Below, piece after piece: positions 15,005 to 51,865 of a DNA stretch of 64,000 bases; position 1 is the stretch's first letter; each line of letters opens with the position of its first letter. The position numbers and the translations under genes are program-made. Source of the DNA: an uncultured Bacteroidales bacterium (GTDB lineage Bacteria; Bacteroidota; Bacteroidia; Bacteroidales; UBA932); NCBI GenBank assembly GCA_900319405.1, contig ONOH01000004.1:1-64000 (forward strand), given 5' to 3'. The notes under the pieces are model-generated. The model saw nothing but the letters and a program-made list of their open reading frames with translations, had not been told where the DNA came from and made no database searches.

Positions 15005-15097
15005 TATAATGCGCTGAATATTAGCGCGTTATAGAAAATCCTCTGCACTTTTTGCGCAGAGGATTTTCAGTAAATGATTGATTGACAATCATTTACT
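15005..15097. repeat. Three-hairpin element, copy 1
   Basis: Left hairpin 15005-15033 (11-bp stem, one G-T pair), constant central hairpin 15034-15068 (CCTCTGCAC, T loop, GCGCAGAGG), right hairpin 15069-15097 (TAAATGATTG/CAATCATTTA). It lies between convergent genes 15 bp after a stop codon and probably ends transcription from both sides. Confidence 0.75.
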
Positions 15098-15106
15098 GAT
15101 TTCAAA

Positions 15107-17251
15107 TTACCAGCCTATGGTGACGGGAACGCCGTCGGGGCTGTTGGGGAAGCGCAGGAAGAGGGTGCAGCTGGACGGGTCCCAGCGGGCGACGGTCCCG
15201 GAGGCATCATCGGCCACGACGGAGGCCCCGACGGGCTGGCCGGCGACGGTAATGGCGGATGGAGCCGAAGGAAGGAGGATGCGGGTGACGTTGTAGGTGT
15301 CGGCCGGACCCTTGCAGAGGTAGGAGAAACCGCGGCGGCTGCGTTTTTCTTCGTAGGCGCGGCTCGCGGCGGCGAGGATGCGGGGGGCCTTCCCGGAGCG
15401 GGCCACATCATAGAAAAGGGCCTGGGAACCGGGCGGGACCTCGCGGCGGGTATAGACCGGAAGCGCGGGGTCGTACAGGTCGATGAGGCAGCCTTCGGCC
15501 ACGAAGGGCGTGTCCACGGGGCTTTCGTCCATTACCGCCACGATGCGGTACGGACCGCGCTCCAACACCAGGGCATTGCCCGTCTCCAGGGGGCCGATGC
15601 ACCTTTCCACCGCCTCCAGAAGCGGCTTTTCACCGCCATCGGCCAGGACAAAGTCGGAGGGGTCCTGCCTGAGCACCGTGAGGCTGCCCCGTCCCACGGG
15701 ATACTGGCCCTCCGCGACGCCGGCAGGAAGGCCCAGAAGACCGAAAAGATGGTCCGATGGTGCCGCAAAGGCGTTTTCACCGCTGTTCCACCATTCCTCA
15801 ACGCGCTGGAAGGGGTCGGTATCCGTGGCGCAGTACACCAGGTTTCCACCGTTTCGGACCCAGGAAGCCAGATGCGAATGGGCCGCAGGGTCCAGCGGCT
15901 TCATATTGGAATAGGTCATCAGAAGCGCATCCACACCTTCCAGCGCCCGCTCATAGCCCAGGTTCTCCAGGTGCGTGATACCCACCGGGCAGCCCCGCTT
16001 GAGAAGCGGAAGCGCCAGGCCGAAAAAGCCCGACAGCGAGGAATCCCGCTGGAACATGAGCGAATTGGCCATCAGCACCGAAACGCGCGAAGGCCGGGCC
16101 GGAGCCGCCGGCATCTGCTGCAGGGCATGGGTCATCACCTGCATCATGGAGGCGTAATCGGCCGGGATGCGGGACTTCGCGTCGGAGCCGGGGCTCACCG
16201 GATACAGCCTCTCGTAGATGCGCTCGGGCCAGGGCATAATCTCGTAGGAGTCCACCTGGGGATACAGCAACTGGGCCGTGAAGGTGGCCTGGTAGTTGCG
16301 GCGGAAGTCCTCCCAGTCGCGGGGGCGGTCTTCGATGGGGTCGGTCAGCAGCCAGATGCGGCGTCCGGTGGGAGCGGTCATCGACACCATGCAGCCATAT
16401 TCCAGGAAAGCCGTCTCGAACACACGCTCGCGATAGACTCCGCCATAGCGATTGGGCACCCGCGAAGTGCCGGTCCAAACCTGGGCGATGTAGCCGTCCA
16501 CGCAGGGAAGCGAGGCCAGTGAGGCCTCGGGGCTTACAATCTGCCACTGCGTATAGTTGATGAGCGAGTGCGTGGGCACATAGCAGCGCACGTCCCGGCC
16601 CAGGCTCCTGCCATACTCCTTAGCATAGGTAAACGCCTGGTCCAGAGCACGATAATAAAGATGATACTTGAGCTTTGCCGTCAGGTATGCGGCTTCGGGA
16701 GACGCTTCCTGGGGGCGCCAGGGAGTGCCGTAAAAGGCCGTCCACTCCCGCTTGAAGGATTCGGAATAGCCGGCGGCCTGCCAGAATTCCGGCTCTTCCA
16801 GGAAGATGTGGTCCACCCCGGCGTCGATCACGCGCTTGATGTGGCGTTCTTTGAAATAGCGCAGGTAATTCTCCGTGGGAACGATATAGGGCACCATCGG
16901 CCCGTGCCAGAGCGTGTCTCCGGCGGCATTCACCTGTCCCTCGTCCAGGTGCTGCCGTCCGTCCCACTCCCCGGTGAAATAGTCCTTGTAGTTGCCCCAG
17001 GCGATACCGGTCATAAAATGGGTCTCGTACCCCCGCGCGCGCCAGGAGGCCAGTCGCTCTTCGAGTGAACCGCCCTGGGCCGATCCCGGGTTTCCGCCCA
17101 CCCCATAGACCATCACGGCATCGGCCCGGTTGTCCAGCGTAGGGCGCCAGCCCTGGGAGGTCTGGAAGGTGGTTTTAACATTGTCCGGGGAAGGGGAAGC
17201 ACAGGCAGCAAGAAGAATCAGGACAAGGAAGGAGGGGAAAATGCGACGCAT
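15107..17251 (-). CDS. Lipoprotein with TIM-barrel glycosidase-like fold
   Basis: 714 aa from the ATG at 17249-17251, which gives a lipoprotein signal (FLVLILLAACAS); an earlier in-frame ATG at 17299 adds 16 residues and spoils it. The N-terminal half (about 50-400) looks like a TIM barrel: ADAVMVYGVGG, HFMTGIAWGNY, DAGVDHIFLEEPEFW with acidic residues at a strand end, then CYVPTHSLINYTQW. The middle resembles a glutamine-amidotransferase-like domain of the kind found in GH42-type enzymes (DALLMTYSNM, LASWVRNGGNLVY), and the C-terminus is beta-rich. I infer a secreted glycoside hydrolase or sugar-binding protein but cannot name a GH family. It is read against the preceding DUF4252 operon and appears to be a single gene. 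Confidence 0.55.
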   Translation of the reverse strand: MRRIFPSFLVLILLAACASPSPDNVKTTFQTSQGWRPTLDNRADAVMVYGVGGNPGSAQGGSLEERLASWRARGYETHFMTGIAWGNYKDYFTGEWDGRQHLDEGQVNAAGDTLWHGPMVPYIVPTENYLRYFKERHIKRVIDAGVDHIFLEEPEFWQAAGYSESFKREWTAFYGTPWRPQEASPEAAYLTAKLKYHLYYRALDQAFTYAKEYGRSLGRDVRCYVPTHSLINYTQWQIVSPEASLASLPCVDGYIAQVWTGTSRVPNRYGGVYRERVFETAFLEYGCMVSMTAPTGRRIWLLTDPIEDRPRDWEDFRRNYQATFTAQLLYPQVDSYEIMPWPERIYERLYPVSPGSDAKSRIPADYASMMQVMTHALQQMPAAPARPSRVSVLMANSLMFQRDSSLSGFFGLALPLLKRGCPVGITHLENLGYERALEGVDALLMTYSNMKPLDPAAHSHLASWVRNGGNLVYCATDTDPFQRVEEWWNSGENAFAAPSDHLFGLLGLPAGVAEGQYPVGRGSLTVLRQDPSDFVLADGGEKPLLEAVERCIGPLETGNALVLERGPYRIVAVMDESPVDTPFVAEGCLIDLYDPALPVYTRREVPPGSQALFYDVARSGKAPRILAAASRAYEEKRSRRGFSYLCKGPADTYNVTRILLPSAPSAITVAGQPVGASVVADDASGTVARWDPSSCTLFLRFPNSPDGVPVTIGW

Positions 17252-17337
17252 AGAACCATTTTTTTGTAAAGATAACCATAAATTGGGATATTTTTTCACA
17301 AAAAAAACTTAACTTTAAAGATTCAAATGAATATGTT

Positions 17338-18621
17338 ATGAAAAAGTTTCTCTTCACCCTGACGGCCATTGCCCTGGTATTGTGCCTGGCCGCTTCCTGT
17401 TCGGATAAAAACAACTCCCTTAGCTCCAAGGAGAAGGCCGACGGCTGGCAGCTCCTGTTCGACGGAGAAACGATGGACGGCTGGCGTGACTTCGGCGGCA
17501 CCGCCCTCACGGGTCCCTGGGAAGTGGAAGACGGCTGTATCCGGGCCGAAGGAGAAGGGGACGACGCGAACGGCTACATCGTCACCGAGCGGGAGTTCGC
17601 CAACTTCCACCTCAAGTGGGAATGGAAGATTTCCCGGGGCGGCAATTCCGGCCTCATCTACCACGTAGTGGAAGCCCCCCGGTACCGCGTTCCCTACGTG
17701 ACGGGCCCCGAGTATCAGCTCATCGACGACGACAACTGGGAAGAGGTGAACGGCTATCCCCTGGAGCCCTGGCAGCGCTGCGCCGTGGATTACGCGATGT
17801 ACGTCCCGGACTTTGAAACCCGCCTCCTAAAACCGGCCGGGCAGTGGAACGCCTCGGAGATCATCTTCGACAACGGCCACGTGACCTATCTCCTCAACGG
17901 CAAGGTTACCGTGGAATTCGAAGCCTGGACTCCGGACTGGTTCCAGCGCAAGAACTCCGGCAAATGGGAGAACGCCCCCGAATACGGCCTTGCCCGCAGC
18001 GGACATATCTGCCTGCAGGACCACGGCTATCCTGCCTGGTTCCGCAACATCAAAATCAAGGAACTTCCCGTCAAGCCGGCCGAAAAAGACCTCTTCAATG
18101 GCAAGGACCTCAGCGGCTGGACCCTCTACGGTAAAGACAAGTGGTATGTGGAAGGCGGTGAACTTGTCTGCGAAAGCGGGGAAGACCACTCCGACTACGG
18201 CTACCTGGCCACCGATGAGTATTACGACGATTTTGACCTCACGGTGGAATTCAAGCAGGAAGCCAACGGCAACTCCGGCGTATTTTTCCGCAGCACCGTC
18301 ACTCCGCCCGCCACCGTCTCCGGCTGGCAGGTGGAAGTCGCTCCTAAAAACAACGATACCGCCGGCATCTACGAATCCTACGGCCGCGGCTGGCTGGTCC
18401 AGATTCCCGACGAGAAGGAAGACATCCTCCGGGAAGGAGAGTGGAACACCCTTCGCATCCTGGCCCAGGGAGACCGCGTTCAGACCTGGCTCAACGGAGA
18501 GCCGATGGTGGATATCACCGATGCCAAGGTAGGTGCCGGAAAGGGCCGCATCGCCCTTCAGATCCACGATGGCGGCGGCATCAAGGTACGCTGGCGCAAC
18601 CTGCATATAAAGACCCTGTAA
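17338..18621 (+). CDS. Lipoprotein with two DUF1080 (3-keto-disaccharide hydrolase) domains
   Basis: 427 aa with a lipoprotein signal (CLAASC). Two copies of the DUF1080 concanavalin-like fold follow one another. Each starts G-W-x-L-(F/Y) (WQLLFDGETMDGWRDFGG and LFNGKDLSGWTLYGKD) and holds FHLKWEWKISRGGNSGL / FDLTVEFKQEANGNSGVFF. DUF1080 enzymes cleave 3-keto-glycosides after sugar oxidation; whether both domains are active here is not clear. A TAACTTTA box near 17313 may be its promoter. It leads a rightward operon with a phosphodiesterase (10 bp gap) and a NagB-like protein. Confidence 0.85.
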   Translation: MKKFLFTLTAIALVLCLAASCSDKNNSLSSKEKADGWQLLFDGETMDGWRDFGGTALTGPWEVEDGCIRAEGEGDDANGYIVTEREFANFHLKWEWKISRGGNSGLIYHVVEAPRYRVPYVTGPEYQLIDDDNWEEVNGYPLEPWQRCAVDYAMYVPDFETRLLKPAGQWNASEIIFDNGHVTYLLNGKVTVEFEAWTPDWFQRKNSGKWENAPEYGLARSGHICLQDHGYPAWFRNIKIKELPVKPAEKDLFNGKDLSGWTLYGKDKWYVEGGELVCESGEDHSDYGYLATDEYYDDFDLTVEFKQEANGNSGVFFRSTVTPPATVSGWQVEVAPKNNDTAGIYESYGRGWLVQIPDEKEDILREGEWNTLRILAQGDRVQTWLNGEPMVDITDAKVGAGKGRIALQIHDGGGIKVRWRNLHIKTL

Positions 18622-18631
18622 ACACTTTGGT

Positions 18632-19843
18632 ATGAGACGATTGCTTCCCTTCCTGCTGGCCGCCCTCCTGTGTGGTTGCAGAGCCCAGGACCACTACACC
18701 GTCATCATTTCCCTGGACGGAAACCGCTGGGACTATCCCGACTATTACGAGATGCCCTTTTTCGACTCCCTGGCCACGGTGGGCGTCAAGGCCCGGATGG
18801 AAGCGTCGTTCCCCTCCTCCACCTTCCCCAACCACTACACCATGGCCACCGGCCTGGTTCCGGACCACAACGGCCTGGTAAACAACAGCTTCTGGAACCC
18901 GGAAACGCAACACGGCTACTCCCTCTCCGACCCGGAGTCCCGCTACGACCCCCGCTACTACCTGGGAGAGCCCGTCTGGATTACCGCCCAGAAGCAGGGC
19001 GTCAAGTGCGGCGTAATCTATTGGGTGGGGTCGGACATCCCCATCGGCCCGGAAGGGAATGCCTATCCCAGCTATTACCGCAAATGGGACGAGCAGCCCC
19101 ACTGGAATTTTGACGAGCGGGCCGATGAGATCGTGCGCCTGATGAGCCTTCCCAAGGAGGAGCGCCCGCGCCTTGTGATGGGCTATTTTGACGAGCCCGA
19201 CCACCAGGGCCACGTTTACGGTCCTTTCTCGCCCGAAACCAAGGCGATGGCCGAAAAGATGGACAGCCTGATGCACGCGCTGTATCTTCGGCTGAAAGCC
19301 CTTCCGCACGGAAAGAAAATCAATTTCATCCTGGCCGGAGACCACGGAATGACGGAGATTTCCCCGGAACGCTTCATCGCCTGGTACGATGTGATTCCCC
19401 AGGAATGGACAGAGCGCATCGTAGGCAACCTTCCCACCAGCATCTGGGTAAAGGAAGGCTATGTGGACAGCCTCTATAACCGGCTTTCCCGCATCGAGCA
19501 CCTGAACGTATGGAAACACGGGGAAGTACCTGAGTATCTGCATTATGGCACCTCCAACCGCCTGGGAGACCTCATCGTCTGTCCGGACCTGGGCTGGCAA
19601 TTCAACTTCGCCCCTTCCTCCAACCGGGGAGCCCACGGCTTCGACAGCAAGGAAACAGACCTGATGGTGGCCTTCCGCGCCGTAGGGCCAGATTTCAAGG
19701 TCGGTTATGACGCTCCCTTCACCGAAGGCGAAAAATCGGCCTTCCGCAACATCGACCTTTACCCCATGCTGTGCAAACTGCTGGGGGTGAAACCCGCGCC
19801 GGTGGACGGAAAACTGGAAAGAATTCAACACATCCTCAAATAA
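18632..19843 (+). CDS. Lipoprotein of the type I phosphodiesterase/nucleotide pyrophosphatase family
   Basis: 403 aa with a lipoprotein signal (LLAALLCGC). The alkaline-phosphatase-like core has metal-binding Asp29 in VIISLDGNRWD, the nucleophile Thr64 with Asn67 in SFPSSTFPNHYT, GYFDEPDHQGH, and AGDHGMTE near residue 230, with a final His in GAHGFDS. Such ectoenzymes cleave phosphodiester or pyrophosphate bonds outside the cell. The stop codon shares its last base with the next start (TAATG), so coupling to the NagB-like protein is likely. Confidence 0.9.
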   Translation: MRRLLPFLLAALLCGCRAQDHYTVIISLDGNRWDYPDYYEMPFFDSLATVGVKARMEASFPSSTFPNHYTMATGLVPDHNGLVNNSFWNPETQHGYSLSDPESRYDPRYYLGEPVWITAQKQGVKCGVIYWVGSDIPIGPEGNAYPSYYRKWDEQPHWNFDERADEIVRLMSLPKEERPRLVMGYFDEPDHQGHVYGPFSPETKAMAEKMDSLMHALYLRLKALPHGKKINFILAGDHGMTEISPERFIAWYDVIPQEWTERIVGNLPTSIWVKEGYVDSLYNRLSRIEHLNVWKHGEVPEYLHYGTSNRLGDLIVCPDLGWQFNFAPSSNRGAHGFDSKETDLMVAFRAVGPDFKVGYDAPFTEGEKSAFRNIDLYPMLCKLLGVKPAPVDGKLERIQHILK

Positions 19844-21768
19844 TGGCAAAACACTTCACTCTTCCCTACGAAGGCGGACTGATTGACAAGAATCTGCCGC
19901 AGGGCATACTTCATTCCTACGAAAGAATCTGGACCCACGTGTATCCGGAGTCCCGCCCTGCCTCTTATAAAATAGCCGACTATATCGTCGAATCCATCAA
20001 CGCCCACTCCGGCAGGCCGTTCCGGCTGGGACTCACCACCGGTTCCACGCCCACGTCCCTGTACAACGAGCTGGCCCGGCGCTGCCGAGATGGAAAGGTG
20101 TCGTTCAAGAACGTGGAAATCGTCTCCATCGACGAATACTACCCTTCGTCCAAGGACGAGGCCCAGAGCCGCAATCACCTCCTGCACGAGGCACTGCTGG
20201 ACAAGGTGGACATCCTCAATGAAAACATCCACATCCCCGACGGAACCGTCCCCGAGGAGAACGTGAGCAGCTATTGCGCCCAGTTTGACACGATGGCCCG
20301 GGGACTGGACCTTCTGGTTATCGGCGTGGGTGAGCTGGGCCAGGTGGGCTTCAACGAGGCCGGCTCCAACGAAAAAACGCGCACCCGCGTCGTGCGCCTC
20401 TCCTACGCTTCCCGCAAGCGCCAGGCCGACAATTTCAACAACGACATATCGGCCACCCCCGACAAAGCCATCACTCTGGGTATCAGCACGATGATGAGCG
20501 CCCGGAAGATTATCTTGATGGCCTGGGGAGAGAGCAAGGCCGCGGCCGTAAAAGCCATTTCGGAAGGGCCGATGACGCCGGACTGCCCCGCTTCGCTCCT
20601 GCAGGACCACGACCACATCTCCCTGTATGCCGACGAAACCGCCGCCAGCCTCCTCACGCGCAGCGTGGCGCCATGGCTGGTGGGGCCATGCGACTGGACA
20701 CCCAAGTTCATCCGCAAAGCCGTTGTCTGGCTGTGCGAAGTCAGTGGAAAACCCATCCTCAAGCTCACGGAAAAGGACTATCTGGACAACAACCTGAGCG
20801 AACTCCTGGAAGTGGCCGGTCCTTTTGACAAGATCAACATCGACGTTTTCAACGACTTGCAGCACACCATCACCGGCTGGCCCGGCGGCAAGCCCAACGC
20901 CGATGACAGCACGCGCCCGGTGAAGGCCACTCCCTTCCCCAAGACCGTCCTCATCTTCTCCCCTCACCCCGATGACGATGTGATTTCAATGGGCGGCACC
21001 TTCATCCGCCTGGCCTCCCAGGGACACGACGTTCACGTAGCCTACCAGACCTCCGGCAACGTAGCCGTTCACGACGACGTTGTGCTCCAGCATTTGGACG
21101 CCGCTTTTCAATTGGGCTTTGCCGACAAGTTCGCAGAAGTGAAGGCCCTGGTGGAGAGCAAGATTCCCGGAGAGCCCGAACCCCGCGCCCTGCTGGAAAT
21201 GAAAGGCGCCATCCGTCGTTCCGAGGCCCGCAGCGCCGTGCGCTCCTTCGGCCTCTGCGACGACACCAACGCCCACTTCCTCAACCTCCCCTTCTACGAG
21301 AGCGGCGGCATCAAGAAAAACCCCCGCACCCAGGCCGATGTGGACATTATCAAGGCCCTCATCCTCCGGCTGAAACCCCATATGATCTTTATGGCCGGAG
21401 ACCTGGCGGATCCCCACGGAACGCACCGTGTGTGCACCGAAGCCGCGATGGAAGCTCTGGACCAGCTCCGCGAGGAGGGGAACAAGTGGATGGAAGATCT
21501 CCACGTGTGGCTGTACCGCGGCGCCTGGATGGAGTGGGAACTGGGTCGCGTGGATATGGCCGTTCCGCTGAGTCCCGACGAGGTGGTGAAAAAACGTCAC
21601 GCCATCTTCCGCCACCTTTCGCAGAAAGACATCGTCCCCTTCCCTGGAGAGGATCCGCGCGAGTTCTGGCAGCGCGCTGAAGAGCGCACCCAGAACACAG
21701 CCCGCCTCTACGATCACCTGGGTATGGCCGAATACCAGGCCATCGAAGTCTTCCTCAAACTCTATTAG
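19843..21768 (+). CDS. nagB: Glucosamine-6-phosphate deaminase-like protein with C-terminal PIG-L deacetylase domain
   Basis: 641 aa, the two-domain form usual in Bacteroidetes. Residues about 1-290 are the NagB fold (GLTTGSTPTSLYNELARR phosphate loop, SIDEYYP). Residues about 360-641 are an LmbE/PIG-L deacetylase with FSPHPDDDV and ADPHGTHR as metal and catalytic motifs. NagB converts glucosamine 6-phosphate to fructose 6-phosphate and ammonia. The active-site segment that reads G-N-D-G-H-I-A-F-N-E in E. coli is G-E-L-G-Q-V-G-F-N-E here, so the Asp and His of ring opening are replaced. Deaminase activity is therefore uncertain; an amino-sugar role remains likely. The start at 19843 is chosen because it begins the conserved sequence and overlaps the preceding stop. 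Confidence 0.8.
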   Translation: MAKHFTLPYEGGLIDKNLPQGILHSYERIWTHVYPESRPASYKIADYIVESINAHSGRPFRLGLTTGSTPTSLYNELARRCRDGKVSFKNVEIVSIDEYYPSSKDEAQSRNHLLHEALLDKVDILNENIHIPDGTVPEENVSSYCAQFDTMARGLDLLVIGVGELGQVGFNEAGSNEKTRTRVVRLSYASRKRQADNFNNDISATPDKAITLGISTMMSARKIILMAWGESKAAAVKAISEGPMTPDCPASLLQDHDHISLYADETAASLLTRSVAPWLVGPCDWTPKFIRKAVVWLCEVSGKPILKLTEKDYLDNNLSELLEVAGPFDKINIDVFNDLQHTITGWPGGKPNADDSTRPVKATPFPKTVLIFSPHPDDDVISMGGTFIRLASQGHDVHVAYQTSGNVAVHDDVVLQHLDAAFQLGFADKFAEVKALVESKIPGEPEPRALLEMKGAIRRSEARSAVRSFGLCDDTNAHFLNLPFYESGGIKKNPRTQADVDIIKALILRLKPHMIFMAGDLADPHGTHRVCTEAAMEALDQLREEGNKWMEDLHVWLYRGAWMEWELGRVDMAVPLSPDEVVKKRHAIFRHLSQKDIVPFPGEDPREFWQRAEERTQNTARLYDHLGMAEYQAIEVFLKLY

Positions 21769-21773
21769 GTTAT

Positions 21774-21868
21774 TTCATAAACGATTGACACTCAATCGCT
21801 TATGAAAAATCCTCTGCACTTTTTGCGCAGAGGATTTTCCGTAAATGATTACTATGCAATCATTTACG
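21774..21868. repeat. Three-hairpin element, copy 2
   Basis: Left hairpin 21774-21806 (CATAAACGATTG/CAATCGCTTATG), central hairpin 21806-21838, right hairpin 21840-21868 (GTAAATGATT/AATCATTTAC). It begins 6 bp after the nagB-like stop and its right hairpin includes the last two codons and stop of the convergent OhrR-like gene. Confidence 0.75.
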
Positions 21869-22315
21869 CGTTTCAGCCAAGGTTTGGATGAGGTCGTCGA
21901 GGGTTTGAAAGAGGGCGGGGGCCGATTCGGGGGTAATGCTGTGGCAGGCAACTGCCTTGCCCACTTCGAAGGGGATACATTCCGACTTCTTTTCCAAGAC
22001 GCGACCCTTGGGGGTAAGGCGGACAATCACCTGACGGGCATCGGCCTGGCCCTTGCTGCGGTTCAGAAGCCCAGCCGCCTCCATTCGCTTGAGGAGCGGC
22101 GTCACGGTATTGGTCTCCAGGAAGAGTTTTCTGGCGATATCGTTCACCGGCTGTCCGTCCTTTTCCCATAGCACCATCATGACAAGGTATTGGGGATAGG
22201 TGAGGCCGATAGCGCTGAGCAGCGGATGATAGGCCTGTGTTATCAGCCGGGAAGCGGTGTACAGCCTGAAACAGAGCTGCTTATCCAATTTCAGTTGCTC
22301 CTGCATAAGCATCAA
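21860..22315 (-). CDS. MarR-family regulator of OhrR type (peroxide-sensing)
   Basis: 151 aa with a winged helix (PQYLVMMVLWEKDGQPVNDIARKLFLETNTVTPLLKRMEAAGL). The N-terminal segment LCFRLYTASRLITQAYHPLL carries Cys15 exactly where OhrR proteins have their organic-peroxide-sensing cysteine; further Cys residues follow near 112 and 124. OhrR represses peroxide-defence genes until the cysteine is oxidised. It is the last gene of a leftward operon with a glutathione peroxidase (4-bp overlap) and a bacterioferritin-like gene. Two matching palindromes flank that operon's promoter, so autoregulation is likely. Confidence 0.85.
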   Translation of the reverse strand: MMLMQEQLKLDKQLCFRLYTASRLITQAYHPLLSAIGLTYPQYLVMMVLWEKDGQPVNDIARKLFLETNTVTPLLKRMEAAGLLNRSKGQADARQVIVRLTPKGRVLEKKSECIPFEVGKAVACHSITPESAPALFQTLDDLIQTLAETRK

Positions 22316-22926
22316 AGCATTTCTTCGATGTCCTTGGCGAAGTCCTTGGGCTCGGCGACGGGAGCGAAGCGTTTGACGACGGTGCCGTCACGGGACACGA
22401 GGAACTTGGTGAAGTTCCACAGGATGTCGCTGTCCTTTTCCACACTCTTGCTCAGTCCTTTGAGCATTTTCTGAGTGGCCTTGGCCTTGAAGCCGTTGTA
22501 CGTCTCGGTAGGAGCCTGTGCTTTCAGGTACTCGAAGACGGGTTCGGCGTTGGGGCCATTGACATCGGTCTTGGCCATCAGCGGAAAGGTGACGCCGTGG
22601 TTCAGGCGGCAGAATTCCTCAATCTGCTCGTTGGTTCCGGGTTCCTGACCGGCAAACTGGTCGCAGGGGAAGCCGATCACCACCAGTCCCTTGTCCTTAT
22701 ACTGCTGGTACAAGGCTTCCAGACCGTCGTATTGAGGGGTGAAACCACACTTGGAAGCGGTATTCACAATCAGGAGGACTTTTCCTTCATAGTCTTTGAA
22801 GTTTACCTCCGCGCCCTTGTTGCTGCGGGTTTTGAAATCATAAATCTTTGCCATTCTTTCTTCGTTTTGTGCGGCGGCGCCGAGGCCCAGAAAGCCCAGA
22901 ATTACCGCAAGTAATACCTTTTTCAT
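22312..22926 (-). CDS. Glutathione peroxidase family protein, exported
   Basis: 204 aa with an N-terminal signal (LGFLGLGAAAQ). The peroxidase residues are present: Cys60 in NTASKCGFTPQY, Gln94 in FAGQEPG, and Trp in ILWNFTKFLV; a second Cys in GFPCDQF (88) fits the thioredoxin-dependent type. It reduces peroxides. It is encoded 3 bp after the bacterioferritin-like gene and overlaps the OhrR-like gene, giving a coherent oxidative-stress operon. The signal peptide suggests it works outside the cytoplasm. Confidence 0.9.
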   Translation of the reverse strand: MKKVLLAVILGFLGLGAAAQNEERMAKIYDFKTRSNKGAEVNFKDYEGKVLLIVNTASKCGFTPQYDGLEALYQQYKDKGLVVIGFPCDQFAGQEPGTNEQIEEFCRLNHGVTFPLMAKTDVNGPNAEPVFEYLKAQAPTETYNGFKAKATQKMLKGLSKSVEKDSDILWNFTKFLVSRDGTVVKRFAPVAEPKDFAKDIEEML

Positions 22927-22929
22927 TCC

Positions 22930-23385
22930 TTAGAGCTGCTGAACCAGCCAGTTCTGAAGGCCAATGCATTCGATTAAGTCCAGCTGACCCTGCATCCAGT
23001 ACATATCCTGTTCTTCATCCTGATAATAGGCCTTCATAATGTCATAGGTGGTCATATCCTCGGCAAGGGAGAGGGTCACCTGACCCAGCACGGGAACTTC
23101 CTTCACGGAGACAGCAAGATCGGCCTTAATGAATTCCACCACATCTTTGTAGATTTTCTGCTCGGGAGTGGCTTCTACCTTGGGTTCTCCGCCCAGTTCG
23201 ATGATGCGGGCCACCATCTTGTCCACCCATTCAGCTTCTTCCTTGGAGTGGTCGGCATATTTGTCGGCCAGTTTCTTCAGGCCCCAGGAGGCGAAAACCT
23301 GGCTCTGGACCTTGTGTTGACGGGACTGTGCGCTGAGGCCGGTAGCATAGGCCTGCAGGATTTGGCTAGCGTTTTGTGCATTCAT
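22930..23385 (-). CDS. Bacterioferritin-like four-helix protein with altered metal ligands
   Basis: 151 aa from the ATG at 23383-23385; the upstream in-frame extension runs through the promoter. The C-terminus (DEEQDMYWMQGQLDLIECIGLQNWLVQQL region) is clearly bacterioferritin-like. Aligned by eye to E. coli Bfr, the two di-iron histidines are replaced (the E-x-x-H His by Trp in EEAEW, and the His after DEE by Asp), while the neighbouring acids remain. Iron oxidation may therefore differ or be lost. First gene of the stress operon, with a textbook promoter at 23425-23454. Confidence 0.75.
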   Translation of the reverse strand: MNAQNASQILQAYATGLSAQSRQHKVQSQVFASWGLKKLADKYADHSKEEAEWVDKMVARIIELGGEPKVEATPEQKIYKDVVEFIKADLAVSVKEVPVLGQVTLSLAEDMTTYDIMKAYYQDEEQDMYWMQGQLDLIECIGLQNWLVQQL

Positions 23386-23410
23386 AACTGCTGTATTTAA
23401 TGGTTGTTTA

Positions 23411-23461
23411 TATCGTTCACGATACAAAGGTACAACAATTATTTTATATCGCAAGCGATAT
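23411..23461 (-). promoter_or_regulatory. Promoter of the stress operon with two flanking operator palindromes
   Basis: On the minus strand a TTG (23452-23454), exactly 19 nt, then TACCTTTG (23425-23432) match the Bacteroidetes -33/-7 consensus. ATATCGCAAGCGATAT (23446-23461) covers the -33 element and TATCGTTCACGATA (23411-23424) starts right after the -7 element. Both palindromes fit TATCG-4 nt-CGATA. Repressor bound to either would block the promoter; the OhrR-like protein of the same operon is the obvious candidate. Confidence 0.8.
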
Positions 23462-23480
23462 TTTGTTTTTTGAAGGTCTT

Positions 23481-23578
23481 TTCTATAAATGATTGAGCGA
23501 CAATCATTTATAGAAAATCCTCTGCGCAAAAAGTGCAGAGGATTTCATGTAATTCGCTGAAAATCAGCACATTGCGCG
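23481..23578. repeat. Three-hairpin element, copy 3 (reverse orientation)
   Basis: Hairpin 23481-23515 (TATAAATGATTG/CAATCATTTATA), central hairpin 23513-23546 in reverse complement to copies 1 and 2 including the same mismatch, and an imperfect hairpin 23547-23578. It follows the stop of the five-gene leftward operon (23586) and precedes the stress-operon promoter. Confidence 0.75.
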
Positions 23579-23585
23579 ACGAAAC

Positions 23586-26111
23586 CTAGAGGCGGGCGAC
23601 GATGCCGGCGATCTGATCTCCGAGGCCGATGGTGTAGCCTTCCGAGCAGAAGAAAAGGCGGTTGAAGCTGTCGGCGACCACCACCAGCGGGAGGCGGCCG
23701 GTGCCGGCGAGTTTCTGGTCGGCGGCGATGGCGGCACGGATACCGGCCGAGTCAACGCCCAGCACGATGGGAATATCGTTCGGGATGGCACCGTATCGGC
23801 CCTCCATCGCTTCCTTCTTGAGACGCTCCAGGGCTTCGGCCGATTCACACAGGAGCACGATGGGACGGCCCCAGGCGGCAAGGCGCTCACGGGCGGCCAC
23901 CAGGTCGCGAAGAGCGTGGTTGGTGGGTTCCTTGCCCGGATCCAGGATGGCGACCACATAGAAGCCCCGGCCCACGGCCGAAAGCAGGGAACAGTCCATT
24001 TCGCTGCCGTCGGGGGTGAAGAGTTTCTCGGCATCCAGCGAGCCGATGACCGGCACGGCGCCGGTCCCTTCGTCGATACGCAGGGGAACATCGGCCACCT
24101 TGCCTTCCTCGATGCGGAAAAAGAGCATCGATACCGGTACGGAACCGTCGGAGAGACGGTTACCGGACACCAGGACATACTCTCCCGCATCCATCTGGAA
24201 GCCGTCCTTGAAAACGTGGGCCCAGTCAACGCCGCCGCCCATATCCACCTCTCCCTCGTCGAAGGCCATCAGGCGGGGACGGCCGTTCTCGATTTTGGAA
24301 AGAGAGAAATGCGTGTAGTACTGAGGATTGGAGATGGTGGTCGTGGGCTTGAAAGAGAGCTTCAGAACGCCCTTGGGAGAGGCCACGGCCTCGGCCTTGC
24401 CGTCAAAGTGGACGTCCAGCCAATCCTCCCCGTTGCGGTACTGGACCTTGCCGGTCACGGGGTCTTTCTGCGCTTCGATGCCGTTGGCCCGGGCGGCGCT
24501 CACGAAGAAGATGTCGCGGGAGCGGGGGTCGGCCAGGCGGCTTTCAAATACGCCTCGGGGCGAAATGGGAATGCGCCAGGCCTTGGGATCATCGACCACC
24601 GTGATGTTGTCCCTCACCCAGTTCACCATTTCCTCCGGGGTGTTGATTACCTCCAGCATGTGCTCGTAGAAATAGCCGTAGAAGGGCGTGAGGAACTCAT
24701 TCTCCACGCGGGAACCCAGGAAACTGTCGGTGCTGTAATAGTCTTTCAGGTTTTCAAGGGTGATGTCGTGAAGGTCTTTTCCGCTCAGCGACGCCAGTAC
24801 GTTCTTTACACGGACCTGGTTCTCCCAGGTACGGAAATCCTGAATCAGCTTCCAGTTGCCGCGGGCGGGCTCGCCGGCGGGGAAGGTGGCCTCATAGGCA
24901 TGCCGAAGGGAGTCCTCATAGGCAAAACGCTTGTCGTTGGCGGCACGCTGTTCCTCCGTCACTTCCGGAAGGATCACGTTCTCGGGAGGCGGAACGATGG
25001 TAAAAGCCTCGCTGCCGAAGGGGCTGTCCAGCACCACCTTCACTTCCTTTTCCTTGCCGAAGGAGGCGCGGGCGTAGCCATAGGCCCCGTCCTTGGAGGC
25101 CCAGATGAGCATATCGCCCAGGCCGGCGCTGGAGAAGGTGCGGCCGAAGTCGTCGGTGTATTTGGTGACGGCCGGATAGAACTCGGCATAGTTGTAGATG
25201 CAGAAATCCACGCGGGCACCCTCCACGGGGGCACCGTCGGCATCCACCACCGTAAAGTCGATGAGGGCGGTCTTGGCGTAATTGTCGATGAGGTTCACCT
25301 CGGTGAAATTGGGGCTTTCCAGCACCACTTCCTCGGGACCGTCATACTTGCCGAACACCTTGGTGTGCATCAGCATCGCCCGGGAGGCAGGGGCATTGAA
25401 CCAGCCCAGGTTCAGGACCGGCTCGGGCTCGCAGGCCCCCAGGAACCACCACTTGCCGTCGGCCCAGGCCTCCACCCAGGCGTGGTTGTCATCGGTGTGG
25501 GCCCAGCGCGGGGTGTACACCTGCCGGGCGGGGATGCCCACGCTGCGGAGCGCCGTCACGCAGAAAGTGGACTGTTCCCCGCACCTTCCCAGGGCGTTTT
25601 TCACCAGGTTCAGCGGCGAGGAGGTGCGGGCGTCGGAAGGCTGGTAGGTCACTTTCTCGTGGCACCAGTGGTTTACCTCCAGGATGGCTTCCTGCATCGA
25701 CATTCCCTCGATACGGGGCATCAGCTCGCGGGCAAAGACCACACGGGCGCTGTCCAGGCTCTCGTTGTTCACGCGAAGGGGCAGCACGAAGTGGCGGAAC
25801 TCCCGCTCCGGCACATTCCAGCGGTCCTTCAGGGCCAGGGCCGTCCGCACGTTCTCCAGAAAGAATTCGGCGGGATAGTCGGTGACATCGGCCAAAGGCA
25901 TATAGGCGTAGAGGAATTCCAGGGCTTCCTTTTCCTGGAGCGAGATGCCCGAAGGGAGGGTCATAAAGGGCTTCAGGGCATTGTTATGGGCCGCAATACG
26001 GGCTTTGTAGTCCTCGGAGACGGTGGCGCGAAAAGACGCGTCCTGGATAAAGTGGGACTGGCAGGAGGCCAGCAGCAAAAGGGCGCCAAGGCCCAGAATT
26101 AATCTTTTCAT
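23586..26111 (-). CDS. Transglutaminase-fold lipoprotein (second of a tandem pair)
   Basis: 841 aa with a lipoprotein signal (ALLLLASC). The transglutaminase-like core lies at about 110-235: Cys177 in GRCGEQSTFC and His210 in DDNHAWVEAW are in place. The third position, usually Asp in a W-x-x-D-P motif, reads FLGACEPEP, so an acidic Glu or the Cys may stand in. The rest is beta-rich with an immunoglobulin-like segment (DFTVVDADGAPVEGARVDF) and a C-terminal thioredoxin-like stretch (VVAILDPGKEPTNHALRDL). It may hydrolyse or cross-link peptides at the cell surface. It is last in the C10 peptidase operon and overlaps its paralogue by 4 bp. Confidence 0.8.
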   Translation of the reverse strand: MKRLILGLGALLLLASCQSHFIQDASFRATVSEDYKARIAAHNNALKPFMTLPSGISLQEKEALEFLYAYMPLADVTDYPAEFFLENVRTALALKDRWNVPEREFRHFVLPLRVNNESLDSARVVFARELMPRIEGMSMQEAILEVNHWCHEKVTYQPSDARTSSPLNLVKNALGRCGEQSTFCVTALRSVGIPARQVYTPRWAHTDDNHAWVEAWADGKWWFLGACEPEPVLNLGWFNAPASRAMLMHTKVFGKYDGPEEVVLESPNFTEVNLIDNYAKTALIDFTVVDADGAPVEGARVDFCIYNYAEFYPAVTKYTDDFGRTFSSAGLGDMLIWASKDGAYGYARASFGKEKEVKVVLDSPFGSEAFTIVPPPENVILPEVTEEQRAANDKRFAYEDSLRHAYEATFPAGEPARGNWKLIQDFRTWENQVRVKNVLASLSGKDLHDITLENLKDYYSTDSFLGSRVENEFLTPFYGYFYEHMLEVINTPEEMVNWVRDNITVVDDPKAWRIPISPRGVFESRLADPRSRDIFFVSAARANGIEAQKDPVTGKVQYRNGEDWLDVHFDGKAEAVASPKGVLKLSFKPTTTISNPQYYTHFSLSKIENGRPRLMAFDEGEVDMGGGVDWAHVFKDGFQMDAGEYVLVSGNRLSDGSVPVSMLFFRIEEGKVADVPLRIDEGTGAVPVIGSLDAEKLFTPDGSEMDCSLLSAVGRGFYVVAILDPGKEPTNHALRDLVAARERLAAWGRPIVLLCESAEALERLKKEAMEGRYGAIPNDIPIVLGVDSAGIRAAIAADQKLAGTGRLPLVVVADSFNRLFFCSEGYTIGLGDQIAGIVARL

Positions 26112-39188: not shown

Positions 39189-39195
39189 CAGGGTT

Positions 39196-40149: not shown

Positions 40150-40161
40150 CGTGCTGGGGGG

Positions 40162-41709: not shown

Positions 41710-41719
41710 ACAATTCTAT

Positions 41720-42514: not shown

Positions 42515-42518
42515 ACCA

Positions 42519-42549: not shown

Positions 42550-42564
42550 ACAAGGTATAGCACA

Positions 42565-43905: not shown

Positions 43906-43908
43906 GAT

Positions 43909-46536: not shown

Positions 46537-46583
46537 GCCGGCGCACCGGGAGCGGAGGAAAGGGGGCTTCAAGGATTTTTTAC

Positions 46584-46591
46584 TATCTTTG
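46584..46591 (+). promoter_or_regulatory. -7 box close to a start codon
   Basis: TATCTTTG lies 6 nt before the ATG at 46598, again predicting a leaderless or nearly leaderless message. No TTG is found at the -33 distance. Confidence 0.5.
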
Positions 46592-46597
46592 TGGTTT

Positions 46598-47920: not shown

Positions 47921-47958
47921 AATGCTGTTAACGTCCCAGTTTTTGGGACGATAGCAGC
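47882..47958. repeat. Second pair of GTCC...GGAC palindromes with GATAG tail
   Basis: GTCCCCAAAAATGGGACG with ATAGAAGC starts at 47882 inside the 3' end of the glycosyltransferase frame; GTCCCAGTTTTTGGGACG with ATAGCAGC starts at 47933 in the intergenic gap. The distance is 51 bp, the same arrangement as the pair at 8573/8623. Confidence 0.7.
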
Positions 47959-47972
47959 ACCAAGATGACAGC

Positions 47973-50597
47973 ATGAAAAGTATCGTGAAAAATATCGCCG
48001 TCGGCCTGGGCGTGATAGCCCTGTTCCTGGCGCTGAGTTACGGTTTTGTGCCGCAAGTTCTGGACGGTAAAATCGTGAACCAGAGCGACATCTCCGGCTT
48101 TGTGGGAATGTCGCACGAGATGTCCGAGTGGAACAAGACCCACCCGGACAATCCCACCTACTGGACCGATTCGATGTTCGGCGGAATGCCCACCACGGCC
48201 ATCTCCACCCAGAACAAGGGAGATTACACGCAGTGGATTTACGATTTGCTGCTGCTGGGAAAGCGGCCCGCCACCTACCTGTTCATTGCCCTGCTGGGGG
48301 CATTTCTGCTGTTCCTGGCCCTGGGGGTGAACTGGGTCGTGGCCCTGGGCGGGGCGGTGGCCATCGCCTTCTGCAGCTACAATTTCCAGATTATCCAGGT
48401 GGGGCACAATACCAAGATGCAGGCCATTGCTTTCATGCCCTGGGTGCTGGCGGCGCTGGTGTATACGTACCGGGCAGCCAGCGGGCAGGCAAAGGGCTTT
48501 TGCTCCGCGTCGCTTCGCGACCCTGTACGGGCAAATACTCCGCAAAAGCCCTTTGCCTGGTCGGAAATGCTGCTGGGTGCCGCTCTGTTTGGGATTGCGC
48601 TGAGTATGCAGATCAAGGCCAATCACCAGCAGATTACCTATTATCTGGCTATTGTGGTGCTGCTGTATGCGCTGGTGGAGCTCATTCATACCATTCGGAC
48701 CAAGGCGTGGAAGCCCTTTCTCACGGCTTCGCTTCTGCTGCTGGTGCTGGGCGGGGCCGGCATCGCCACCAATGTGAACAAGTTGCTGCCGCTGGCCAGA
48801 TATACGCCGCAGACGATGCGCGGCGGGTCGGAACTGACCAAGGAAGGCTCCAACGCCAAAGGCCTGGACCTGGACTATGCCACCTCCTGGAGCTACGGCT
48901 GGGAGGAGCTCCCCAACCTGATGATTCCCAACTTCAACGGCGGGGCGTCGGCCGGGGCGGTGAATCCGGAGAAATCGGCCACCATCAAACTGCTGCGCCA
49001 GGCGGGACAGAAGAAACTCAAGGAGACCGCCAAGGCCCTGCCGCTTTACTGGGGTCCGCAGCCTTTCACCGCCGGGCCGATGTATATGGGTGCCATCACG
49101 ATCTTCCTCTTCGTACTGGGACTGGGGTTGTACCGCGGCCGCGAAAAGTGGTGGCTGCTGGCGGCGACCGTCCTGGCTGTACTGATGGCGGTAGGCAGTC
49201 ATTTTATGGCCTTTACCGAGCTCTGTTTCAAGTATTTGCCGCTTTACAACAAGTTCAGGACGGTGTCTATGGCGCTGGTGGTGCTGCAAGTGACGCTGCC
49301 GGTTCTGGGCTTTGTCACCCTGGACCGCATCGTGAAGGGTGAATACGAGCTCAAGACCTTCCGGAAGAAGGGCATCATCGCGTTTGCCGTCACCGGCGGT
49401 TTCTGCCTGCTGTGCTATCTGGCGCCGGGGCTCTTCGGCTCCTTCGAGAGCGAGGCCGACGCCGGGATGCAGGATGTGTTGGTCGAGGCGCTGGTGGAGG
49501 ACCGCATCGCCCTGTTCCGCTCCGATGCCCTGCGCTCCCTGCTGCTCATTTTTGCAGCGGTGGGCCTCATCGTGTGGGCCCTTTCGCCCAAGGGACAGAC
49601 CGGACACGCGAAGGTCTTCGCCGGACTGGGCCGCAGAGGGATGGCCGCCGCCGGCATCTGTCTGCTGCTCACAATCGACCTTTTCGCCGCGGGAAAGCGC
49701 TACCTCAACAGCGACCATTTCACTACCCCCAAGGACTTCAGCAAACCCTTTGCCGAGCGTCCCGTGGACCAGATGATCAAGGCCGATGAGGACCCGCAGT
49801 ACCGGGTGTTGGACCTCACGGTGAACGTGTTCAACTCCTCCATTCCTTCCTACCACCACAAGAGCGTGGGCGGCTATTCGCCCGCCAAGCTGCAGCGCTA
49901 CCAGGACCTCATCGAGCATTACCTGACGGGCGAAATCAACGGCCTGTACAAGCGGCTGAACGAGGCGGACGGCCTGGAAGAAGTGGGACAGTGGATGGCC
50001 GATGGAACGCCGGTTCTGAACGCCCTCAACACCCGCTACGTGGTGCTGGGTGCCGATTATCCGCCCCTCGTGAACGAAGCCGCCTTCGGTCCCGCCTGGT
50101 TTGTGGACAGCGTGGTGGAGGCCGCTACCCCGGACGAGGAAATCGCCCTGCTGGGCAGCGTGGACCTGCGCCGCCAGGCTGTCTTGGAGCGATCCTTCGC
50201 TCCCGCTGTCATTCTGAACGACAACGAAGAATCTGACTTTATCGAAATGACCTCCTACGCCCCCAACGAACTGCATTACAAGTACTCCGCCTCCTCGGAG
50301 CGCCTGGCGGTCTTCTCCGAAATCTACTACCCCAACGGCTGGACACTCACCCTTCGGTCCTCGGGCGAGTCCGGGACATCGGCATCGGCCCCAAAACAGA
50401 TCCCCCTCCTTCGGGCCGACTGGACCCTTCGCGCCGCCCTCCTGCCGGCCGGCGAGCACGAGCTGGTGATGACTTTCCTGCCCGAAAGCTACCGCACCGG
50501 AGCGATCGTCTCCCGCATCACCTCCATCGGCCTGCTGCTGCTTCTGCTCCTGGCCGTCGGCCTCGCCTTCCTTCCCGCCACGCGACGCGACCCATAA
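47973..50597 (+). CDS. YfhO-family multispanning membrane protein
   Basis: 874 aa with about a dozen hydrophobic spans and a long C-terminal soluble region. The start (ALSYGFVPQVLDGKIVNQSDISGF, then DSMFGGMPTTA) is the usual YfhO beginning; in other bacteria YfhO-type proteins glycosylate teichoic acids or lipids. Codons 173-195 (KGFCSASLRDPVRANTPQKP) derive from a 70-bp palindromic repeat, and the segment SFAPAVILNDNEESD near residue 745 derives from another genomic repeat. Both keep the frame open. Probably works with the preceding glycosyltransferase. Confidence 0.8.
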   Translation: MKSIVKNIAVGLGVIALFLALSYGFVPQVLDGKIVNQSDISGFVGMSHEMSEWNKTHPDNPTYWTDSMFGGMPTTAISTQNKGDYTQWIYDLLLLGKRPATYLFIALLGAFLLFLALGVNWVVALGGAVAIAFCSYNFQIIQVGHNTKMQAIAFMPWVLAALVYTYRAASGQAKGFCSASLRDPVRANTPQKPFAWSEMLLGAALFGIALSMQIKANHQQITYYLAIVVLLYALVELIHTIRTKAWKPFLTASLLLLVLGGAGIATNVNKLLPLARYTPQTMRGGSELTKEGSNAKGLDLDYATSWSYGWEELPNLMIPNFNGGASAGAVNPEKSATIKLLRQAGQKKLKETAKALPLYWGPQPFTAGPMYMGAITIFLFVLGLGLYRGREKWWLLAATVLAVLMAVGSHFMAFTELCFKYLPLYNKFRTVSMALVVLQVTLPVLGFVTLDRIVKGEYELKTFRKKGIIAFAVTGGFCLLCYLAPGLFGSFESEADAGMQDVLVEALVEDRIALFRSDALRSLLLIFAAVGLIVWALSPKGQTGHAKVFAGLGRRGMAAAGICLLLTIDLFAAGKRYLNSDHFTTPKDFSKPFAERPVDQMIKADEDPQYRVLDLTVNVFNSSIPSYHHKSVGGYSPAKLQRYQDLIEHYLTGEINGLYKRLNEADGLEEVGQWMADGTPVLNALNTRYVVLGADYPPLVNEAAFGPAWFVDSVVEAATPDEEIALLGSVDLRRQAVLERSFAPAVILNDNEESDFIEMTSYAPNELHYKYSASSERLAVFSEIYYPNGWTLTLRSSGESGTSASAPKQIPLLRADWTLRAALLPAGEHELVMTFLPESYRTGAIVSRITSIGLLLLLLLAVGLAFLPATRRDP
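48488..48557. repeat. Palindromic repeat inserted inside a reading frame
   Basis: Perfect 16-bp inverted arms, GGCAAAGGGCTTTTGC (48488-48503) and GCAAAAGCCCTTTGCC (48542-48557), enclose 38 nt that hold a smaller hairpin (GTCGC-TTC-GCGAC). The whole element is translated as part of the YfhO-type protein, in a loop between membrane spans. Confidence 0.75.
50191..50234. repeat. GATCCTTCG...GAAGAATCT repeat inside a reading frame
   Basis: GATCCTTCGCTCCCG, then TGTCATTCTGAACG and CGAAGAATCT. The same modules recur at 54590-54666, 58336-58399 and partly at 57970-57997. Here they encode part of the YfhO-type protein near its C-terminus. Confidence 0.6.
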
Positions 50598-50683
50598 CAC
50601 GTTGTCTATCAACGTGTTATAGAAAATCCTCTGCGCTTTTTGCGCAGAGGATTTTCTATAATCGACTGGTTCTCAGTCGATTA
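50594..50683. repeat. Three-hairpin element, copy 4
   Basis: Left hairpin 50594-50620 (TAACACGTTG/CAACGTGTTA) includes the YfhO stop codon; the central hairpin 50620-50658 is a perfect palindrome around CTTTTTG; right hairpin 50659-50683 (TAATCGACTG/CAGTCGATTA). It lies between convergent genes and ends 4 bp before the mrp stop codon. Confidence 0.8.
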
Positions 50684-50687
50684 CGGA

Positions 50688-51749
50688 TTAGACGGTAGCA
50701 ACAAGCCGGGCGGCGAGCTCCCGGAAGGCTTGGCTGTCGGGACGGTCCAGGAGGGCGACGGGGGTGCCGTCATCGGCCCCTTCGCGGATGTCCTGTACGA
50801 GGGGGATCTGCCCCAGGAAAGGGATATCCAAGTCTGCCGCCATCTTGGAGCCGCCGTCCTTTCCAAAGAGGTAGTATTTCTCCTCGGGATGGGCCGCCGG
50901 AGTGAACCAGGACATATTTTCCACCAGGCCAAGGATGGGTTTTTGGACCTGCGGGTTGCGGAACATATTGGCTCCTCTCAGGACATCGGCCAGGGCCACC
51001 TGCTGCGGGGTGGTGACGATGACGGCCCCGCTCATCGGCACGTCGCCGATGAGGGAGATGTGGATGTCGCCGGTGCCGGGAGGCATATCGATGAGGAGGA
51101 AGTCCAGCGGACCCCAGACGGTTTGCAGGATGATTTGCTTGAGGGCGGTGGAGGCCATCGGCCCGCGCCAGATGAGGGCCTGCCCGGCCTGGGAGACGTG
51201 TCCCACGGAGAGCCATTTCACGCCGTACTTCTCCACGGGGACGAAGAGATTGGTGTTCTCGTCTTCGCCTTCCATCTCGATGGTGACGCCTTCGGTGCCG
51301 GTCATCGTGGGAATGGAGGGGCCGTACACATCGGCATCGGCCACGCCCACCCGGTAGCCCAGACGGGCCAGGGCTACGGCCAGGTTCACCGTGACGGTGC
51401 TTTTGCCTACGCCGCCCTTGCCGGAAGCTATGCCGATGATGTGGCTTACCTCACGCAGCTGCTCCAGGTTGAACTCGATGCCCTTGGGAGCCGGTTTGGC
51501 GGGCTCCTTGACGATGGTATCCACCTCGATGACGGTGCCGCCGGGCAGATGCCGGTACAGGCAGGCCTGGACAGCGCCCACCAGATAGTTCTTCAAAGGG
51601 TCCGGCCGCTTGGGAAAAGCCAGGGTGATGTGCACCTTGCCTTCTTCGATGTCAATCTTTTCCACCAGGCCCAGCGCTACAACACTCTGGTCCTCTTTGC
51701 CGGGATGCTGCACCTGCTGCAGCCATTGCCGTATTTCGTTCTGATTCAT
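50688..51749 (-). CDS. Mrp/ApbC-type iron-sulfur cluster carrier ATPase
   Basis: 353 aa from MNQNEIRQWLQQVQHPG; the longer upstream reading goes through a repeat element. An N-terminal MIP18-like (DUF59) domain (VVALGLVEKIDIEEGKVHITLAFP) is followed by the P-loop GKGGVGKSTVTVNLAVAL with the deviant Walker A Lys, and IDMPPGTGD. The two-Cys metal-binding motif common in this family is not evident, which is common for short Mrp forms. It loads Fe-S clusters onto target proteins. Confidence 0.88.
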   Translation of the reverse strand: MNQNEIRQWLQQVQHPGKEDQSVVALGLVEKIDIEEGKVHITLAFPKRPDPLKNYLVGAVQACLYRHLPGGTVIEVDTIVKEPAKPAPKGIEFNLEQLREVSHIIGIASGKGGVGKSTVTVNLAVALARLGYRVGVADADVYGPSIPTMTGTEGVTIEMEGEDENTNLFVPVEKYGVKWLSVGHVSQAGQALIWRGPMASTALKQIILQTVWGPLDFLLIDMPPGTGDIHISLIGDVPMSGAVIVTTPQQVALADVLRGANMFRNPQVQKPILGLVENMSWFTPAAHPEEKYYLFGKDGGSKMAADLDIPFLGQIPLVQDIREGADDGTPVALLDRPDSQAFRELAARLVATV

Positions 51750-51774
51750 TTTTGTTGCGTATGGTGTTTGGTCG

Positions 51775-51865
51775 GCAAACGACTGATTATCAATCGTTTG
51801 CTGAAAATCCTCTGCGCAAAAAGCGCAGAGGATTTTATATAACACCCTAACTGTCAGGGTGTTAT
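51775..51865. repeat. Three-hairpin element, copy 5 (reverse orientation)
   Basis: Hairpin 51775-51801 (GCAAACGACTG/CAATCGTTTGC), perfect central palindrome 51802-51837 with A5 loop on the plus strand, hairpin 51839-51865 (TAACACCCT/AGGGTGTTA). It lies between the S46 peptidase stop and the mrp start, both leftward. Confidence 0.8.

Follow-up and report, generated by a model that had tools for sequence, protein, structure and literature searches.

The window analysed here, the whole 64,000-nucleotide stretch from contig ONOH01000004.1, belongs to the genome of a gut Bacteroidales bacterium (G000; 2.13 Mb, 59 contigs, 89% complete) and carries five short palindromic elements built on one plan, in which a central hairpin of nearly constant sequence stands between two outer hairpins. 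All five were found where the first-pass annotation of this DNA had placed them and the order of their hairpins was confirmed; stable folds are predicted on both strands. These elements probably belong to a non-autonomous family resembling the repetitive extragenic palindromes (REPs) and the REPINs formed by pairs of them, spread by a Bacteroidales REP-associated tyrosine transposase (RAYT) through the steps proposed below. Gene positions come from our own codon-usage caller, trained on the window.

Element 1, 15005..15098, T-loop on the + strand: hairpin, centre (15037-15065), hairpin; convergent genes end at 14990 (+) and 15107 (-).
Element 2, 21774..21868, T-loop on the + strand: centre at 21808-21836; convergent genes end at 21768 (+) and 21860 (-).
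Element 3, 23481..23578, T-loop on the - strand: centre at 23516-23544; lies 3' of the gene 23586-26111 (-) and upstream of a ferritin-like gene.
Element 4, 50594..50683, T-loop on the + strand: centre at 50625-50653; convergent with the mrp-like gene 50688-51845 (-).
Element 5, 51775..51865, T-loop on the - strand: centre at 51806-51834; lies 3' of the peptidase S46 gene 51872-53944 (-).

The forward-strand gene ending at 50597 has as its stop codon the TAA in the left hairpin of element 4, and elements 4 and 5 form an inverted pair bracketing mrp. The centre had been described as constant; it is near-identical in the 44 genomic copies presented below, but in three of the five window elements (15037, 21808 and 23516) GCAC faces GCGC, leaving one A-C mismatch (G-T on the opposite strand) that is found in 28 of the 44. 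Pairing also reaches further than first reported, over AATCCTCTGC...GCAGAGGATT plus 1-2 bp. No Rfam family matched the window at gathering score. A role as uptake sequence was considered and discarded: the window, the only stretch searched for solitary half-centres, contains none, all 7 exact matches to either 9-mer falling inside elements.

The family extends over the whole genome. A search of G000 with the pattern AATCCTCTGC-NN-TTTTT-NN-GCAGAGGATT, in which up to 3 mismatches were allowed, returned 44 centres, none of which needed more than 2, against 0 for the reversed pattern. The covariance-model search suggested by the first-pass annotation was carried out with a model built from these 44 copies and added two decayed ones (contig positions C22:114131 and C23:25120), bringing the family to at least 46 members, 44 with the near-identical centre and 2 decayed. 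Alignment of the 44 copies gives an outer-hairpin consensus of approximately ATC-NN-TAA-NNNN-YTGA-NNN-TCAR-NNNN-TTA-NN-GAT, in which TAA, TGA and the bases facing them hardly vary, whereas any base may stand at N; its core, TAA-N4-YTGA-NNN-TCAR-N4-TTA, is called the dyad hereafter. No terminal inverted repeat (TIR) closes the element in G000, positions 4-8 pairing in 0.25-0.48 of copies. The earlier picture of a multicopy palindromic element whose arms differ between copies, and which is placed like a terminator or 3'-end element, is thus supported genome-wide.

The copies are placed almost exclusively right behind stop codons. All but one of the 44 copies are intergenic, and these 43 lie in 25 convergent and 18 codirectional gaps and in no divergent gap; since divergent gaps make up 5 of the 19 window gaps of at least 60 bp, the probability of 0 divergent gaps in 43 by chance, calculated from that fraction, is about 2e-6. 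The proximity to stop codons noted in the window also holds, 54 of the 68 gene ends adjacent to the 43 copies lying within 15 bp of the element, with the single intragenic copy as exception. For twelve gene ends the stop codon is the TAA of the hairpin itself, and the 18 neighbouring start codons are at a median distance of 56.5 bp. The elements are likely to act as terminators or otherwise at 3' ends. It had further been proposed that the T-loop strand is that of the upstream gene. This is correct for both copies cited, but the 18 codirectional copies of the genome divide into 9 sense and 9 antisense, and a rule of orientation was dismissed. The central AAAATCC...GGATTTT hairpin would serve as a common, orientation-independent 3' end for convergent genes, and copies would persist between such genes because the centre would supply the 3' end of both. 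The intragenic copy (locus L032) is in frame within a transporter-like open reading frame on the reverse strand (713-2338), which we take to be MATE-like. In what follows, other G-numbers, UBA2716, UBA3764, RGIG9187 and RGIG3283 are congeners, RUG13929 is the sister genome of G000, with an identical centre sequence, and C- and L-numbers are G000 contigs and single loci, respectively. At the L032 site, an element occupies the same place in UBA2716 and RGIG9187 (both flanks) and in UBA3764 (one flank).

REP/RAYT systems are best known from Proteobacteria. In G000 and in many congeners, a RAYT gene of the Y1/HuH type has elements of this plan on its flanks, hence their grouping with REP and REPIN elements; the gene of G000 occupies the same locus as that of G019. 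The genome contains two genes of the Y1 transposase family PF01797, a family detected in 32 of the 61 genus genomes. One of them, at C55:50615, is the single copy of its type and lies between element copies at C55:49983 and C55:51737. Both neighbours of this locus are common to G000 and G019 (81 and 72% identical) and one to G062 (81%), while the RAYT itself is 59% identical to that of G019 and 62% to that of G062. A companion gene (183 aa, L042:604-1155 on the - strand; 61-72% identity) separates the RAYT from the upstream element in these three genomes; it has no notable match in Pfam or NCBIfam, and its structural model, with a mean confidence score (pLDDT) of 44, is uninformative. In G062 the segment comprising RAYT and companion (L206, 855-2670) is bracketed by two elements and has the opposite orientation with respect to the neighbour common with G000. 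The second Y1 transposase gene of G000, at C42:16996 (L191), is of another type, and no element was detected alongside it.

The association was quantified with one strict element detector at 30 PF01797 loci with a usable open frame, 20 of type A and 10 of type B; the types were called by a loose motif, two of the A assignments (G036 and G070) being doubtful, one type-B row (G072) having stood among A3 rows and the open frame of G008 being probably mis-picked. An element was within reach at 15 of the 20 type-A loci and on both sides at 10 (11 with G000, whose second copy is in L042), compared with 2 of 10 and 0 of 10 for type B. Block shuffles gave 0 in five rounds, and 24 mrp loci, restricted to the more distant members, gave 1. 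In G034 and G028 the PF01797 gene adjoins the sole covariance-model match of the genome. Moreover, the RAYT-flanking copies are in the same sequence dialect as the dispersed ones (G000, G019, G062, G023). Copies of one repeat are thus found both around the transposase gene and elsewhere in the genome, as in REP and REPIN systems, though not all loci carry them. The earlier proposal of a new class of terminators, if taken as a stand-alone class, is not supported.

The type-A proteins (about 310 aa, 309 in G000, 303-367 overall) have a long C-terminal domain and a C-terminal SNTGSEYDI-like motif, together with [DN]HxH (EHFH in one row), mostly F in place of W, and YxxNN. H73 and H75 of the HuH motif are invariant in 19 rows, as are Y133 and N137 of the Y---NP motif; the latter reads YNYNNP in G000, and the 17 type-A rows shown contain two NNH and one NNA variants. 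The AlphaFold2 model of the G000 RAYT, the one protein modelled for this purpose, has a pLDDT of 89, and its best PDB match is 4er8_A, E. coli TnpA-REP in complex with a REP hairpin (E 3.5e-5, TM score 0.63 on the target). A sequence search of PDB gave no match to this protein. Of 392 further genomes of the order, two had a match to the type-A profile (E <= 1e-20); they come from one sister genus (g27), and the two genomes of G000's own genus listed among the 392 did not match. No three-hairpin plan was detected with the RAYT relatives of g27, for which one of four loci, L217, was examined. There a RAYT relative lies amid at least 6 copies, in both orientations, of the repeat GTGGCACTGATTTTTCTAA, which is a different type of element.

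The same plan exists in congeners, with a common dyad and a centre and TIR specific to each species. The covariance model found matches in 7 of 36 congeners and in none of 24 genomes of other genera. The dyad, searched with at most 1 mismatch, was matched in all 61 genus genomes (2-87 each, against 0-4 for the reversed pattern). Not every dyad match is an element, as sites upstream of a presumed ribosomal gene illustrate. The occurrence of outer hairpins without the centre at random positions had been put forward as a refutation of the earlier reading; dyads lacking this centre do occur in other genus members, and many of them sit within elements that have other centres. The centre reads CCTCTGC in G000 and RUG13929, CCTCGGC in UBA2716 and UBA3764, CCTCGTTC in G061 and G062 and TTTCTCGTTC in G019. 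In those relatives that were inspected, a species-specific TIR closes the element: CTGGTC (G005), GTGACAG (G061, G062), GGTGACA (G019), GTGGC (RUG13929) or a GCGTnAAATG-like sequence (G006, G081). The TIR pairs in 0.67-1.0 of copies at positions 5-8 (G005, for which a centre filter kept 28 of 33 copies, G061, G062 and G019) and in 0.75-1.0 at positions 4-8 in RUG13929; this pairing comes from conserved sequence and is clearly above partner shuffling only in G019. In RUG13929 the ends read GTGGC...GCCAC, and at 41 of 56 ends GTGG, known as the foot of REPs, stands exactly 4 nt ahead of the dyad. G005 has elements in tandem, two or three to an array and with a period of about 124-155 bp (L077-L082). 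Three congeners (L158, L166, L169) further show a similar dyad, CAACCAGCTGA-NNN-TCAG... with variants, near what is presumably a ribosomal-protein gene; possibly this is a conserved leader without relation to the elements.

These comparisons bear on two other explanations. Conserved TIRs of 6-10 bp in the relatives could suggest a miniature inverted-repeat transposable element mobilized by another DNA transposase that uses the TIR, the RAYT being merely a frequent neighbour. The copies of G000 are nevertheless numerous despite having no TIR, and those beside the RAYT genes share the dialect of the dispersed copies, PF01797 being the sole transposase family searched; this explanation is very improbable. 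According to the other, the elements would be bidirectional terminators of the ordinary kind, with flanks turned palindromic by mutation alone and no mobile family involved. Their position and their A-tract/T-tract hairpin agree with this, as do the centres of G006, G081 and G034, all unlike that of G000 and variable from copy to copy in the first two, and the terminator-like hairpins found at the 3' end of mrp in G003 and G028. However, a single centre in 44 copies, a TIR and dyad common to the copies of each genome, the tandem arrays of G005 and the pairs of copies that enclose RAYT genes speak against it, and this possibility is judged rather improbable.

Sites shared between genomes add a historical dimension. 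Twelve pairs, each of a G000 copy and a copy of RUG13929, UBA2716, RGIG9187 or RGIG3283, agree on both flanks; the loci had been picked for holding the centre, and they show the existence of shared sites, not their frequency. In these pairs the arms differ, and in 5 of the 12 the centre is reversed. One arm of L037:5695, a G000 copy whose arms do not pair, still visibly resembles that of the RUG13929 copy matched to it. The concerted shift of dialect at such sites may reflect either replacement by new copies or rewriting in place. At mrp, the orientation relative to the neighbours is one way in G000, G061 and G062 and the other way in G019, G028 and RUG13929, G028 having no elements there. This situation suggests a recurrent inversion of mrp, possibly by recombination between elements; the RAYT-companion segment of G062 is a second element-bracketed inversion.

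The first-pass annotation interpreted the matched changes of the two arms as selection on structure, with outer stems that remain paired. Covariation is indeed far above chance, though some stems are imperfect (for instance the second hairpin of 23481-23578), and it is strong when examined, as had been advised, over more copies. In the alignment of the 44 copies, 84.8% of cells are paired versus 73.5% after shuffling, 250 are changed on both sides versus 104 (sd 9) and the covariation score is 0.329 versus 0.142; sliding the partner by 1-3 columns abolishes the signal. Pairing of the arms sets G000 apart from its relatives. For the N4 positions it reaches 0.65-0.67 in G000 (0.32-0.33 with arms shuffled), against 0.21 (0.29) in RUG13929 despite the identical centre and 0.26 (0.27) in G005; small sets are scattered between 0.12 and 0.46 (0.19 to 0.34 shuffled), and the sets of G005 and G062 include some spurious elements joining halves of adjacent tandem copies. 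Pairing between the inner arms of RUG13929 is also at the shuffled level.

The pairing in G000 is, furthermore, all-or-none for each hairpin. Among its 88 outer hairpins, all four N are paired in 34 (15.5 expected under independence) and none in 10 (1.4 expected), and pairing outside the TAA climbs along with that of N4, from 0.9 to 2.6 of 3; in RUG13929, N4 pairing fits a binomial. Both arms are paired in 16 of the 44 copies, one in 17 and neither in 11. In hairpins with at most 4 differences, those between the arms are mostly transitions (64 of 96). Pairing at the RNA level is expected to favour G-U on one strand. The outer arms contain 104 G-T and 95 A-C mismatches (p 0.57), which are thus equally common, and on this ground strand-specific selection on RNA was rejected.

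Strong covariation, a site directly behind stop codons and stable folding of both strands are what would be expected of a structured terminator or 3' untranslated RNA whose outer stems are kept by compensatory mutation, the RAYT link being incidental. This explanation is unlikely, given that the two mismatch types are balanced, that the arms are unpaired in close relatives, the sister genome and shared-site copies included, that pairing goes by whole hairpins and not site by site, and that the T-strand shows no preferred direction. The all-or-none pairing, its extension outside the dyad and the absence of a G-T/A-C bias favour instead the rewriting of whole hairpins over base-by-base RNA selection, and the G000 pattern reads as such rewriting with symmetric decay afterwards. 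Old and new copies mixed together would look all-or-none as well, and one-step events are therefore not proven by the pattern alone.

The scenario proposed for the RAYT system is as follows. The RAYT would recognize the dyad as a single-stranded hairpin; it would have spread the copies and may still rewrite them. In the G000 lineage the elements would have lost the TIR and the GTGG foot, and single hairpins would have been turned into perfect palindromes in one step, by template switching during replication or by RAYT processing, which would produce the apparent covariation. Template switching can yield perfect stems in one event (PMC8794818, in the part of the text available). RAYT processing would be the alternative, the two being inseparable here. 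The complete shift in architecture, from a TIR-closed, GTGG-footed element with an unpaired dyad to three free paired hairpins, one arm being copied onto the other by the enzyme or by replication through hairpins and the TIR destroyed, is advanced only tentatively.

Several observations weigh against the RAYT interpretation. The GT[AG]G foot expected of REPs lies within 12 nt outside the TAA at only 8 of 88 G000 ends. The search for empty sites in relatives disclosed no clean empty site and no target duplication, the G028 site being filled by a terminator-like hairpin, and neither excision, insertion nor cleavage was observed in the genome comparisons. Five of the 20 type-A loci have no detected element. 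Conversely, no PF01797 gene was found at E <= 1e-5 in G005 (60 model matches), G030 (87 dyads), G077 or G081, which may be explained by incomplete assemblies, and some genomes are at control level for dyads (4 versus 4 in G013). On the protein side, HuH has T or A as its middle residue in the proteins of G000, G019 and G062, T replacing a hydrophobic residue; the W motif is F in most rows, with W in G028 and L in G026; and the G000 RAYT, which does match the NCBIfam model REP_Tyr_transpos (NF047646) at E 9e-12, scores 45 bits, below the equivalog cut-off of 80, the four Y1 proteins compared reaching 45-49 bits (E about 1e-12). GGATTTT follows the stem, and a terminator scan of 13000-25000 left elements 1-3 unflagged. 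Finally, a genome-wide rise in perfect hairpins or template switching in G000 is unsupported by the few counts available: outside elements, stems of at least 9 bp number 10 in 227 kb of G000 and 11 in 89 kb of RUG13929, and those of at least 11 bp number 4 and 0. Perfect hairpins elsewhere in G000 are therefore not clearly in excess, which argues against a general mutator.

Known systems offer several parallels. Like the REPINs, BIMEs (bacterial interspersed mosaic elements) and REPtrons associated with RAYT (TnpA-REP), the elements have two inverted hairpin repeats around a centre, extragenic 3'-end placement and species-specific sequences, they flank a Y1/HuH transposase gene, and their ends in RUG13929 mostly start with GTGG. 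They differ by the missing GT[AG]G foot in G000, the three hairpins with a terminator-like centre, the conserved TAA-N4-YTGA dyad with hypervariable N4 and the arms apparently rewritten to perfect palindromes. In the portion of PMC6006769 available, TnpA-Y1 subclass 2.6 (RAYT group 5) is reported from Bacteroidetes, its genes being flanked by "atypical secondary structures" that lack GT[AG]G and have copies elsewhere. Host, flanking structures and genomic copies agree with the present case; compared by motif and length, however, the G000 RAYT (309 aa, DHTH, F, YNYNNP) departs from the median of 179 aa, NH[LIV]H, WQ and YIH[QN]NP given there. The "double foot" REPs of subclass 2.4, with GT[AG]G at the 5' end and its complement at the 3' end, recall the GTGGC...GCCAC ends of RUG13929, and the Y motif is YIxNNP, but the same portion of that source gives a median of 194 aa, WQ and REPs within the gene and describes no three-hairpin plan. 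TIRtrons (TIRYT) are RAYT-like genes flanked by long TIR structures, which make up moderately abundant repeat families (PMC3733652); the part of this source available does not name Bacteroidetes and states no dyad-centre-dyad plan. In literature searches, REP/RAYT elements of Bacteroidales were not seen as the subject of any title or abstract retrieved, from which no absence from print is claimed, and the nearest reports, as far as their accessible text goes, are the remarks on Bacteroidetes in PMC6006769 and the CGTC repeats of PMC3733652.

The range of REP/RAYT systems would thus be extended to a group of uncultured Bacteroidales in which the element has an unusual plan of three hairpins, the RAYTs are long and dialects vary by species, shared sites included. 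Covariation as strong as that observed in G000 is normally taken as proof of a functional RNA. The two sister genomes, with an identical centre and arms paired in one and unpaired in the other, provide a natural contrast for asking whether covariation can come from the rewriting of hairpins and not from selection on RNA. If the proposed shift in architecture is true, the G000 family would be an instance of textbook covariation arising without RNA selection.

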